The notes under the pieces: generated by a model | What the model saw: the letters and a program-made list of their open reading frames with translations, nothing else | Database searches by the model: none | What the model was told of the DNA's origin: nothing | Program-made: the position numbers and the translations under genes | Source: Aurantiacibacter sp. D1-12 | GTDB taxonomy: Bacteria; Pseudomonadota; Alphaproteobacteria; Sphingomonadales; Sphingomonadaceae | Direction: 5' to 3' | Length of the DNA stretch: 64,000 nt | Assembly (NCBI RefSeq): GCF_028858515.1 | Contig: NZ_JAPJZJ010000005.1 | Span: 124,001 to 188,000, forward strand | Part shown: positions 55,093 through 58,215 of the stretch, in pieces | How positions within the stretch are numbered: position 1 is the stretch's first letter | Layout of the letters: the number at the start of each line of letters is the position of its first letter

Positions 55093-55252
55093 GCCCGGCC
55101 TTCTTGCACCTTGTAAACTTCACCTGATCGCAGCTTGAAAACGCTTCGTCTCTGAACGCGAAATCCAACGATCTGTTCATCTACGGTTGCACTTTACTGA
55201 ACGATACATCTTTCCATCGGCACACGAGGTGTCGACTCGAAAGAGGTATCTG

Positions 55253-55750
55253 ATGATGAAAAAGCCACTGCTTGCACTCGCCGCCGCCACCGCGCTGGCA
55301 CTCCCTGCAACACCCGCCATGGCACAGGGTGGCCCGCCCGCTTGGGCACCCGCGCATGGCTATCACAATAACCACAGCGGCTATGACCGTTATGATCGCT
55401 ATGACCGCTGCGACCGATATGAACGTCGCCGCGATCGCCGCGCATGTCGCCGCGATCAACGCCGTGATCGCCGCTATGAGCGTCGTCAGCGTGTCTATGA
55501 TGACCATGGCCGCTATTACGAACCGCGCCGCGTACGCCGTGGTGACCGCGTATGGCGTGGCCGCGATGGCCGCTACTACTGCGAGCGTGACAACGGCACG
55601 ACCGGCCTGATCATCGGTGCTGCCGGTGGTGCGCTGATCGGTCGCGAGATCGACACGCGTGGTGACCGGACGCTCGGCACCGTTTTGGGCGCAGCGATCG
55701 GCGGCCTCCTCGGCCGGGAAATCGACCGTGGCGGCGCGCGCTGCCGCTAA
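55253..55750 (+). CDS. Glycine-zipper 2TM domain lipoprotein-like secreted protein
   Basis: 165 residues from the ATG at 55253 with AAGAGG upstream. MMKKPLLALAAATALALPATPAMAQ is a signal peptide. A low-complexity middle (repeated DRY units followed by RRDRRACRRDQRRDRR) is rich in Arg, Tyr and Asp. The C-terminal GLIIGAAGGALIGREID and GTVLGAAIGGLLGREID are two tandem glycine-zipper segments, as in Rickettsia 17-kDa-antigen-like proteins. It is probably anchored in or attached to the outer membrane. A long 3'UTR hairpin and a strong terminator follow. Confidence 0.82.
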   Translation: MMKKPLLALAAATALALPATPAMAQGGPPAWAPAHGYHNNHSGYDRYDRYDRCDRYERRRDRRACRRDQRRDRRYERRQRVYDDHGRYYEPRRVRRGDRVWRGRDGRYYCERDNGTTGLIIGAAGGALIGREIDTRGDRTLGTVLGAAIGGLLGREIDRGGARCR

Positions 55751-55819: not shown

Positions 55820-55862
55820 GACGCCGTCGCTCTTTCCCCTCGGAGCGGCGGCGTCTTATTTT
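55820..55862 (+). terminator. Intrinsic terminator before the HTH-NadE gene
   Basis: A 13-bp stem (GACGCCGTCGCTC with GAGCGGCGGCGTC, one T-G wobble) with a 10-base loop, followed by TTATTTT. It closes the glycine-zipper transcript and isolates the NAD synthetase gene, which then needs its own promoter in the next 46 bases. Confidence 0.85.
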
Positions 55863-55881
55863 GCAAACCCTTCTTGCAGTG

Positions 55882-55900
55882 AGTATCCTTTTCGGATACT
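55882..55900. promoter_or_regulatory. Palindromic operator candidate for the HTH-NadE gene
   Basis: AGTATCC-TTTTC-GGATACT is a perfect 7-bp inverted repeat with a 5-base centre. It ends 8 bases before the ATG at 55909. The first domain of the encoded protein is a Cro/C1-type HTH, whose dimers usually bind palindromes of this size, so autorepression is a plausible model. Evidence is positional only. Confidence 0.5.
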
Positions 55901-55908
55901 AAGTCGCC

Positions 55909-58215
55909 ATGCACCTGGCAGGGCAGAAAATCCGTAACTGGAGAGAAGCGCATAACCCACCGCTCAGCGCGGAGGAATTTGGTGCTCAATACGGCTCGCC
56001 CAAGCGCTGGCCCAGCCGCACCGTCTATGGCTGGGAAGCCAAAGGCAAAGTCCCACGCAAAGCCACCCAATTGCGGCTGGCCGAGCTGGGTATCTGCGAG
56101 CCTGCCGATTTCCTTGAACCTGCCGGTAATGGCATGGAGAAACCCAAAACGATGAGCGACACCCCCTTCGACTTCTTCGATATGCATGCCCACGGCTTTG
56201 TGCGGATCGCCACCGGAACGCCCAAGAGCCGCACCGCAGACGTTGCCTACAATGCCGAAGGGATCGTTGAGCAAGCAAAAGAGGCGCACGCGCAGAATGT
56301 CGACCTGCTGCTCTATCCGGAACTGTGCCTGTCATCCTATGCGATAGACGATCTGCATATTCAGGCAGCACTGCTGGAGGCGGTTGAGCAGCATATCGAG
56401 GTTATCCGTGCGGCGAGCGAGGAACTGACGCCGGTACTGGTCATTGGCGCTCCGCTGCGGCGCGGTGGGCGCATCTACAATTGCGCAGTTGTGATCGCAC
56501 AGGGCGAAGTGCTGGGCGCGGTCCCCAAGAGCTACCTGCCAAATTACCGCGAATTCTACGAGAAGCGCTGGTTCGCGCGCGGCAACAATTGCCATGATCT
56601 GTGGATCGGGGTGAATGGCGCCGAAGTCCCGTTCGGAACCGATCTCATCTTTGCTGCGACCAATCTGCCCGGCTTCACCTTCGGCATCGAAATCTGCGAG
56701 GATTACTGGAGCCCCAACCCGCCGGGCACGCTAGCGGCGCTGGCGGGCGCTAACATTCTGCTCAACCTATCCGCCTCAAACATCACCATCGGCAAATCAG
56801 ATGAGCGCCACATGCTGTGCCGGGCTTCTTCCAGCCGTTCGGTCTGTGCCTATGCCTATTCCGCCAGCGGCTTTGGCGAGAGCACGACGGACCTCAGCTG
56901 GGATGGCCAGGGCATGGTCTATGAGTTGGGCGATCTGATGATCGAAAGCGTGCGCTTCGAGCTCGAGCCCGAGCTGTGCGTCACCGATATCGACACCCAG
57001 CGTATCCGCAACGAACGCATGCGCATGGGCACTTTCAACGATGCGGCAGAAGATGCCGGACGGCCTGAGGATACATTCCGCACCGTCGGGTTCGAACACA
57101 ACTACGCGGCGGGCGATATCGGGCTGAAGCGCGCGATCCGCCGCTTCCCCTTCGTCCCCAACCGGCAGGAAAAGCTGCACGAGGATTGCTACGAGGCGTT
57201 CAACATCCAGGTTGATGCCCTCGCCCGCCGGGTGAAGGCGACCAGTCCGAAATCACTCATCATCGGCATCTCGGGCGGCCTCGATTCCACCCACGCGTTG
57301 ATCGTCGCCGCCAAGGCTTGCGACATGCTTGGTCTGCCCCGCGAGACCATCCGCGCCTACACCATGCCCGGATTCGCGACCTCCGACGGCACCAAGAGCA
57401 ATGCGTGGAAGCTGATGGAAGCCTTTGGCACCACCGCAGAAGAAATCGATATCAAGCCCGCTGCGCGACAGATGCTGGAGGACATGGGGCACCCCTTCGC
57501 GGATGGCGAGCCGGTGCACGATGTCACTTTCGAGAACGTGCAGGCGGGCCTGCGGACCGATTACCTCTTCCGCCTTGCAAACCATCACAAAGGCTTTGTG
57601 ATCGGCACAGGGGATCTGTCAGAACTGGCGCTGGGCTGGTGCACCTACGGCGTGGGCGACCAGATGAGTCACTACGGTGTTAATTCGGGCGTCCCCAAGA
57701 CTCTGATTCAGTACCTGATCCGTTGGTGCACACGCACCGACCAGTTTGACGGGCATTGCGATGCCGTTCTCGAAGAAGTGCTGGCGACGGAGATTTCGCC
57801 CGAACTGGTGCCAGCCAGTGCGGACGGTTCGATCCAGAGCACCGAGAGCATCATCGGGCCATACGAGCTCAACGACTTCTTCCTCCACCACATTATCCGC
57901 TGGGGGCAAAAGCCGAGCCATGTCGCCTTCCTCTGCTACCACGCATGGAAGGATGCGAAAGCCGGGCTATGGCCGCACGCCTTCCCTGAAGGTGGCAAGA
58001 ACGCTTACAACCTCGTGACGATTCGCAGTTGGTTAGAAAAGTTCCTGAAGCGCTTCTTCCAGTTCAGCCAGTTCAAGCGCAGTGCCATGCCCAACGGGCC
58101 GAAAGTAAGTGCCGGCGGCGCCCTCTCCCCACGCGGAGACTGGCGCGCACCGAGCGATGCGATGGCTGACGTGTGGCTGGAGGAGCTGCGCCGCAAGGTG
58201 CCCGCAGACGGGTGA
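55909..58215 (+). CDS. nadE: NAD+ synthetase (glutamine-hydrolysing) with N-terminal Cro/C1-type HTH
   Basis: 768 residues if begun at 55909, against about 680 for the usual two-domain enzyme. Residues 1-70 (GQKIRNWREAHNPPLSAEEF, then RTVYGWEAKGKVPRKATQLR) look like a Cro/C1 helix-turn-helix. The canonical enzyme would start at Met82 (ATG 56152). The nitrilase-like glutaminase domain has Glu138 in LLYPELCLSS, Lys207 in VPKSYLPNYREFYE and Cys263 in IEICEDYW; the synthetase domain has the ATP loop ISGGLDSTHALI at about 453-464. It converts nicotinate adenine dinucleotide to NAD+ using glutamine. No stop or frameshift separates HTH and enzyme. Whether long, short or both forms are made is open. 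Confidence 0.88.
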   Translation: MHLAGQKIRNWREAHNPPLSAEEFGAQYGSPKRWPSRTVYGWEAKGKVPRKATQLRLAELGICEPADFLEPAGNGMEKPKTMSDTPFDFFDMHAHGFVRIATGTPKSRTADVAYNAEGIVEQAKEAHAQNVDLLLYPELCLSSYAIDDLHIQAALLEAVEQHIEVIRAASEELTPVLVIGAPLRRGGRIYNCAVVIAQGEVLGAVPKSYLPNYREFYEKRWFARGNNCHDLWIGVNGAEVPFGTDLIFAATNLPGFTFGIEICEDYWSPNPPGTLAALAGANILLNLSASNITIGKSDERHMLCRASSSRSVCAYAYSASGFGESTTDLSWDGQGMVYELGDLMIESVRFELEPELCVTDIDTQRIRNERMRMGTFNDAAEDAGRPEDTFRTVGFEHNYAAGDIGLKRAIRRFPFVPNRQEKLHEDCYEAFNIQVDALARRVKATSPKSLIIGISGGLDSTHALIVAAKACDMLGLPRETIRAYTMPGFATSDGTKSNAWKLMEAFGTTAEEIDIKPAARQMLEDMGHPFADGEPVHDVTFENVQAGLRTDYLFRLANHHKGFVIGTGDLSELALGWCTYGVGDQMSHYGVNSGVPKTLIQYLIRWCTRTDQFDGHCDAVLEEVLATEISPELVPASADGSIQSTESIIGPYELNDFFLHHIIRWGQKPSHVAFLCYHAWKDAKAGLWPHAFPEGGKNAYNLVTIRSWLEKFLKRFFQFSQFKRSAMPNGPKVSAGGALSPRGDWRAPSDAMADVWLEELRRKVPADG

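Follow-up and report, generated by a model that had tools for sequence, protein, structure and literature searches.

An HTH domain fused in frame to an NAD+ synthetase

The window analyzed here is the whole 64,000-nucleotide stretch of Aurantiacibacter sp. D1-12 DNA. On its plus strand, the ORF list and translation revealed a frame that stays open throughout from the ATG at 55909 to 58215 and encodes a 768-residue protein with an HTH domain followed by an NAD+ synthetase, an assignment backed by NF002730 and PDB matches and by matches in genomes of the genus. The NCBIfam model NF002730 (NAD(+) synthase) matches residues 89–765 over its full length with 1045.6 bits against a cut-off of 473, and the closest PDB entry, 3dla, aligns with residues 88–766 (827 bits). 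Pfam places a glutaminase (CN_hydrolase) domain at residues 100–367 (56206–57009, plus strand) and an NAD synthase domain at residues 434–633 (57208–57807, plus strand), the latter including an SGGLDST loop. Multisequence alignment of 28 fused proteins showed that E138, K207 and C263, which we take to be the Glu-Lys-Cys triad of the glutaminase, are invariant, as is the SGGLDST loop, whose role as an SGGxDS loop we likewise assume. Because these residues and the loop are invariant, the NAD+ synthetase part is probably active. The continuous frame from ATG 55909 through an HTH-like domain into a complete NAD+ synthetase, as described in the sequence-only reading, was thus confirmed, and the gene encodes an intact-looking glutamine-dependent NAD+ synthetase with a Cro/C1-type HTH of about 70 residues in front.

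The product of the gene upstream, at 55187–55750, is basic and has a glycine zipper at its C terminus (Rick_17kDa_Anti, 42.6 bits). This gene is followed on the plus strand by a terminator-like stem-loop at 55820–55855. The stem of the terminator proposed to isolate the fused gene is therefore present, but a count of one against a mean of 0.9 in shuffled sequences is not significant by itself.

Fold and conservation of the HTH domain

The HTH domain occupies residues 1–72 (55909–56124, plus strand), as delimited by predicted structure, Foldseek, profile search and dN/dS, and carries the conserved block WPSRTVYGWE at residues 34–43. Structure prediction gave a five-helix domain with a mean pLDDT of 93.8. 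Its best Foldseek matches were mostly HTH proteins (MBF1, 3ivp, P22 c2 and HigA), lambda-repressor-like ones included, with no match passing E 0.001; the P22 c2 repressor reached a TM score of 0.65, but as a weak structural match with E 0.39–0.54. By sequence, a profile of 16 relatives matched 3ivp, 434, CylR2 and P22 c2 with E 0.0001–0.02, and homeodomain chains with E 0.02–0.04. A search against Pfam HTH models had been proposed as a check; the domain from the window alone matched no Pfam family, an outcome that, taken literally, had been named as refuting the proposal, while 8 of the 16 aligned relatives matched HTH_31 and 7 matched HTH_3 at E ≤ 0.1, so we do not take the miss as a refutation. 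Among the relatives, the HTH of a DAHP synthase fusion scored 24.7 bits with HTH_31, below the cut-off of 27, and a standalone relative scored 24.3 bits with HTH_3, above the cut-off of 23. A lambda-repressor-like helical fold is likely, short of proof.

In five pairwise comparisons the dN/dS of the HTH domain was 0.05–0.18, against 0.07–0.15 for the enzyme, and exceeded twice the enzyme's value in two of the five; by this comparison the HTH domain is under purifying selection. The linker at residues 73–88 (56125–56172, plus strand) is variable, with dN/dS of 0.42–0.87 in four pairs and saturation in one over its 16 codons, and residues 70–85 have pLDDT below 50.

The operator and the HTH domain occur together

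The same fusion was sought in related genomes and found. Among 40 genomes of the genus, sorted by eye, 19 match the fused protein from residue 1, 18 begin near Met82 without the extension and three are fragments; the pattern that would have spoken against a fusion, with all close relatives starting at the Met82 equivalent, is not what they contain. At the level of the family, NadE of the NF002730 type is present in 150 of 298 genomes, 48 of which carry the fusion, and some of the other 102 matches, counted as unfused, are fragments (e.g. those of G302 and G242). The HTH domain occurs in 52 of the 298 genomes: in 48 it runs on into NadE, in three it stands before another enzyme and in one it is alone. 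An order-wide profile search of 396 genomes detected the domain in 82, all within the same family. Named genera with the domain, among the best 80 of 81 loci, are Aurantiacibacter, Qipengyuania, Pontixanthobacter, Altererythrobacter, Alteraurantiacibacter, Croceibacterium, Tsuneonella, Allopontixanthobacter and Parerythrobacter.

Many relatives are without the HTH domain. On a FastTree phylogeny of NadE built from 71 of 90 distinct sequences, with loci of the named collection left out, the trait must have changed at least 14 times, with well-supported branches forcing 9 of these changes, and the distances of HTH and enzyme agree (Mantel r 0.92, 15 of 39 rows). Together, the tree changes and the agreeing distances favor descent with repeated loss over repeated gain.

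Just ahead of the start codon lies a putative operator, the palindrome AGTATCC-N5-GGATACT at 55882–55900 (class A below), identified from the sequence, genome counts and covariation. The perfect inverted repeat that the sequence-only reading had pointed out is exact, and it is single in the window even when three mismatches are allowed; the genome holds this one exact copy, the next best being two sites with two mismatches. Of the 48 family genomes with the fusion, 46 carry an exact GTATCC-N5-GGATAC 4–15 nt ahead of the fused gene, and the two exceptions have a one-mismatch site (G183) or a class B site (G274). In none of the 102 genomes with unfused nadE does the exact site adjoin that gene. 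An exact site is also present in fifteen other genomes, among them eight whose nadE is unfused and lies apart from the site. Of 38 unfused nadE loci, the 37 that we read have no site, their best candidates having 2–6 mismatches; of six unfused loci that had failed the motif filter, five were read later and lack the site, L293 being the one not included. None of 39 fused rows has more than two mismatches to the operator. Comparison therefore shows that the operator and the HTH domain are present or absent together.

A second exact palindrome was found in eight of the 48 fused family genomes, each time inside a coding frame. Seven of these (L111–L117) lie within a TldD-like frame, across the codons for GILKGYM, one of the seven frames being Pfam-confirmed as TldD; the eighth lies inside another coding frame. 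Given these positions we did not retain them as extra operators: the HTH protein might also bind the copies in TldD-like genes, but their presence is probably coincidence.

The recognition helix and the operator covary

The HTH domain is not confined to NadE. In genus g91 (Sphingomonas) the same domain is fused to a class-II DAHP synthase (PF01474, 686 bits). These fusions are found at L062 (3029–4618), L063, L064, L190–L208 and L286–L288, and those of Sphingomonas azotifigens, S. pokkalii and S. hylomeconis, named among the best 80 of 81 loci, were checked to be DAHP synthase fusions. Of the 22 fusion genomes in the order-wide search, 20 were searched for TTACCC-N5-GGGTAA: 17 contain a total of 19 exact sites, all at the fusion gene, and the remaining three have one-mismatch sites. 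Tandem operators 35–36 bp apart occur in two of the 20 genomes (G566 and G561), and tandem operators are also present at L200, L286 and L287.

We then compared helices and half-sites over 137 distinct loci, which comprise three recognition-helix types and one standalone gene. Distinct loci may count one species under two assemblies, and the class count (136 + 1) rests on a sequence pattern that L065, L189, L200, L207, L286 and L287 failed. Type A, with the helix RT[VI]YGWE in front of nadE, has GTATCC in 185 of 200 half-sites. Type B, with QTVFGWE, also in front of nadE and belonging to part of genus g78, has TTATCT or TTATCC (TTATCY) in all 30 half-sites. Type C, with STVQGWE in front of DAHP synthase, has TTACCC in 39 of 42. 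In every case the locus's own operator class scores best (100/100 for A, 15/15 for B and 21/21 for C), these loci being related, so that 100/100 does not stand for 100 independent events; 24 of the 100 class A reading frames are 700 residues or shorter because the available DNA ends. Four further class C loci, outside the pattern-based count, carry an exact class C site. Perfect 6-N5-6 palindromes are found at 86 of 100 class A, 4 of 15 class B and 18 of 21 class C loci, against 157 of 13,600 shuffled upstream sequences. With type C, the domain has been joined separately to another enzyme, the class-II DAHP synthase of Sphingomonas.

This covariation speaks strongly, if not as directly as a binding test would, for binding of the palindrome by the HTH domain. 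Most simply, the fused domain binds the site, and helix and site have changed in step. A site in promoter position would be open to any repressor, so the palindrome could instead serve a separate trans-acting regulator, with the HTH doing something else. This is very improbable, given that no operator adjoins nadE where the HTH is lacking, that the two co-occur where it is present, and that the operator type follows the helix type in 136 of 136 loci, across two enzyme genes.

A putative promoter around the operator

On the plus strand, a TTGC element at 55874–55877 lies 5 nt before the 17-bp core of the palindrome, and this spacing is conserved, with a TTG[CAT] ending 5–6 nt ahead of the palindrome at 94 of the 100 class A loci, at 14 of the 15 in class B and at 17 of the 21 in class C. 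The classes share one layout, in which TTGC is followed after 5–6 nt by an arm, N5, the second arm and, usually 8–12 nt further, the ATG. A generic promoter scan detected no sigma-70 consensus promoter at the site, so the promoter is deduced from conservation, and TTGC is probably the core of a −35 box. The right arm of the palindrome would then fall at the expected position of the −10 box, and transcription would start at the ATG or a few bases from it. Shine-Dalgarno-like 4-mers between site and ATG are rare (8 of the 100 loci in class A, 2 of the 15 in class B and 1 of the 21 in class C), which, together with the placement of TTGC and palindrome, points to a leaderless or near-leaderless transcript. 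However, the anti-SD energy before the main ATG averages −4.65 (n = 91), stronger than the −3.06 of other in-frame ATGs; this counts against a leaderless start, but the GGAT of the palindrome could perhaps explain it.

If the site were transcribed, it could form an RNA hairpin with a 7-bp stem and a 5-nt loop and act at that level. We consider this highly improbable, since 22 of the 136 sites (15 in class A, four in B and three in C) hold a pair that is impossible in RNA and the TTGC just upstream puts the site inside the promoter.

The arrangement is the one expected if the fused enzyme is an autorepressor acting on its own gene via the upstream palindrome, a reading to which we assign a probability of roughly 0.86. 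We propose a one-gene feedback loop made of a phage-type Cro-like HTH, a flexible linker and an intact glutamine-dependent NAD+ synthetase. NAD+ synthetase is presumably oligomeric, and the HTH domains of the oligomer would bind GTATCC-N5-GGATAC, downstream of the putative −35 element and ahead of the start codon. The bound repressor would exclude RNA polymerase, the repressive sign of the regulation being inferred from the position of the operator between TTGC and ATG, and the enzyme would repress its own gene and probably little else. By comparison with its relatives, the protein would qualify as an autoregulatory enzyme-repressor (trigger enzyme), with its own DNA-binding domain and a matching site at its own gene. 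The core of the earlier proposal of an enzyme-repressor that controls its own gene thus finds good support in the conserved fusion, the co-occurrence of operator and domain, and the covariation; the proposal as a whole, which included sensing of NAD or its precursor, is partly supported.

An internal start at Met82

An internal ATG on the plus strand (Met82, 56152–56154) had been suggested to give an enzyme-only form, and the evidence for this is mixed. A Shine-Dalgarno-like GGAG at 56136–56139 (plus strand) gives an anti-SD duplex of −6.4 kcal/mol, but it lies 12 nt from the ATG, a long spacing. Of 91 distinct fused genes, 74 retain an ATG where NadE formerly began, and 17 lack the internal Met. 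In the 74 genes, the purine stretch at −16 to −11 reads GAAAG in 41 and GAAAGG in 17, the mean anti-SD energy before the internal ATG is −5.91 (947 other in-frame ATGs average −3.06, codon-shuffled linkers −2.72), and Shine-Dalgarno-like 4-mers precede the ATG in 37, versus a mean of 9 with codon-shuffled linkers. Purine 5-mers track the internal Met, being found in 56 of 74 genes with it versus 5 of 17 without. However, when the strongest anti-SD match is taken from any position in the linker, genes that keep the Met (−6.13) are no different from genes that lack it (−6.12), and the lysine-rich linker could mimic a Shine-Dalgarno signal. A mere relic is an unlikely source of the linker signal, because unfused nadE starts have weaker anti-SD signals (mean −3.88, n = 30). 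On balance, an enzyme-only form starting at Met82 has about as much for it as against it.

The same observations could be carried further, to a gene in which the HTH extension is untranslated and NadE simply begins at Met82, where the unfused homologs begin and where a Shine-Dalgarno-like stretch often precedes the ATG. The HTH dN/dS of 0.05–0.18, the lack of any stop within the HTH match in all 48 fused family genomes and the 17 of 91 genes without the internal Met make this extremely unlikely.

Standalone relatives in phage-like elements

Standalone relatives of the domain are encoded at L065 (3080–3301), L188 (3972–4247) and L189 (4046–4273), each oriented away from a neighboring CI-like HTH gene and followed by a primase-like gene (DUF7146, Toprim), which adjoins in two of them and is about 1.3 kb off in L189. 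Ahead of the L188 start lies a comparable site, TGTCCC-N5-GGGATA, with five of six pairs. The standalone relatives thus appear to occupy the Cro position of phage-like or integrative elements. From this placement, like that of cro in a phage switch, we infer that such an element is the likely source of the domain. A phage search with a composed HTH sequence returned 22 records with a best E of 0.01, mostly short XRE matches.

In a profile search across the class, 27 of the 385 genomes gave a match at E 1e-5, including four from the family. With their frames read by eye, the matches outside the family look like ordinary XRE regulators or repressors, with one exception (L324), and no further HTH-enzyme fusion was recognized in these 385 genomes. 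At L324, from a distant genome of the class, a single frame joins an HTH_31 domain (match at 1501, 32.8 bits) to a nitrate-reductase-delta/TorD-like chaperone (88.5 bits), possibly another self-regulating fusion.

We offer a wider scenario tentatively, with the odds somewhat against it. Sphingomonadales would have taken up a phage Cro-like domain at least twice to serve as a plug-in autoregulator, once ahead of NAD+ synthetase and once ahead of class-II DAHP synthase, with a separate operator immediately preceding each start codon. A single transcript would yield two products, a leaderless repressor-enzyme and an internally started enzyme, whose mixed oligomers would tune repression, with the ligand state maybe gating DNA binding. 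If this is true, the fusions would be living counterparts of the laboratory-built intermediate between enzyme and regulator.

Relation to known systems

PutA and BirA are enzymes with their own DNA-binding domain that act as repressors, with folds and enzymes that differ from those of HTH-NadE. In enterobacteria, NadR is a multifunctional protein of NAD metabolism that combines an HTH with NMN adenylyltransferase and ribosylnicotinamide kinase. HTH-NadE is not of the NadR type: its enzyme part consists of CN_hydrolase and NAD_synthase, so NadR has a different enzyme partner, as had been noted from the sequence, as well as other target genes, and the parallel is functional only. According to PMC5343134, NrtR and NadQ repress NAD synthesis, and nadE is among the predicted NadQ targets in Rhodobacterales and Caulobacterales; as described there, they differ from HTH-NadE in DNA-binding domain, in palindrome and in having several targets. 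NrtR_WHD (PF21906) matched neither HTH-NadE nor anything else in the window's genome, while a control search recovered the Caulobacter protein. Among the 40 genus genomes, an NrtR_WHD protein is present in three, one fused and two unfused, and its presence does not track the absence of the fusion.

Our literature search, with most subscription journals outside its coverage, returned no report of an HTH-NAD synthetase or HTH-DAHP synthase fusion. An enzyme doubling as its own repressor is a known kind of regulator; what appears new is the choice of enzymes paired with the domain, along with the helix-operator series.

The autorepressor model also has a narrower form, in which the HTH binds and autoregulates while the enzyme part senses nothing and the loop only holds the amount of enzyme constant. 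The variable, fast-evolving linker of low model confidence does not favor tight coupling, and the domain serves two unrelated enzymes. On the other side, NAD+ synthetase and DAHP synthase both catalyze biosynthetic steps where ligand control would make sense. An engineered chimera, Q1, is also instructive here: as described in PMC3602430, an HTH-XRE joined to shikimate kinase keeps enzyme activity and represses a promoter, and its repression is relieved by shikimate in vitro, except once the linker is removed. There was no such relief in vivo, since turnover removed the inducing state. By analogy, substrate may have a weak effect on the natural fusions, or these may signal the product or the amount of enzyme instead. 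The narrower form has, in our estimate, an even chance of being right.

Among the architectures we found described, the closest is BzdR, which, according to PMC3602430, controls a catabolic pathway and has lost enzyme activity in its natural form. Like the autorepressor proposed here, BzdR and Q1 have an N-terminal XRE-type HTH, a linker and a C-terminal biosynthetic enzyme fold. Unlike BzdR, HTH-NadE has conserved catalytic residues and its own gene as predicted target, which would make it a natural counterpart of the Q1 step. The evolution of an enzyme into a transcription factor has been studied with an engineered chimera (PMC3602430). Two natural sets of fusions keep both the enzyme and a readable operator beside close relatives that have neither, which makes this step directly testable, and they offer a natural helix-operator code with three specificities. 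For the genus itself, in which 3 of 40 genomes have an NrtR_WHD protein, the fusion is a candidate for the control of nadE.
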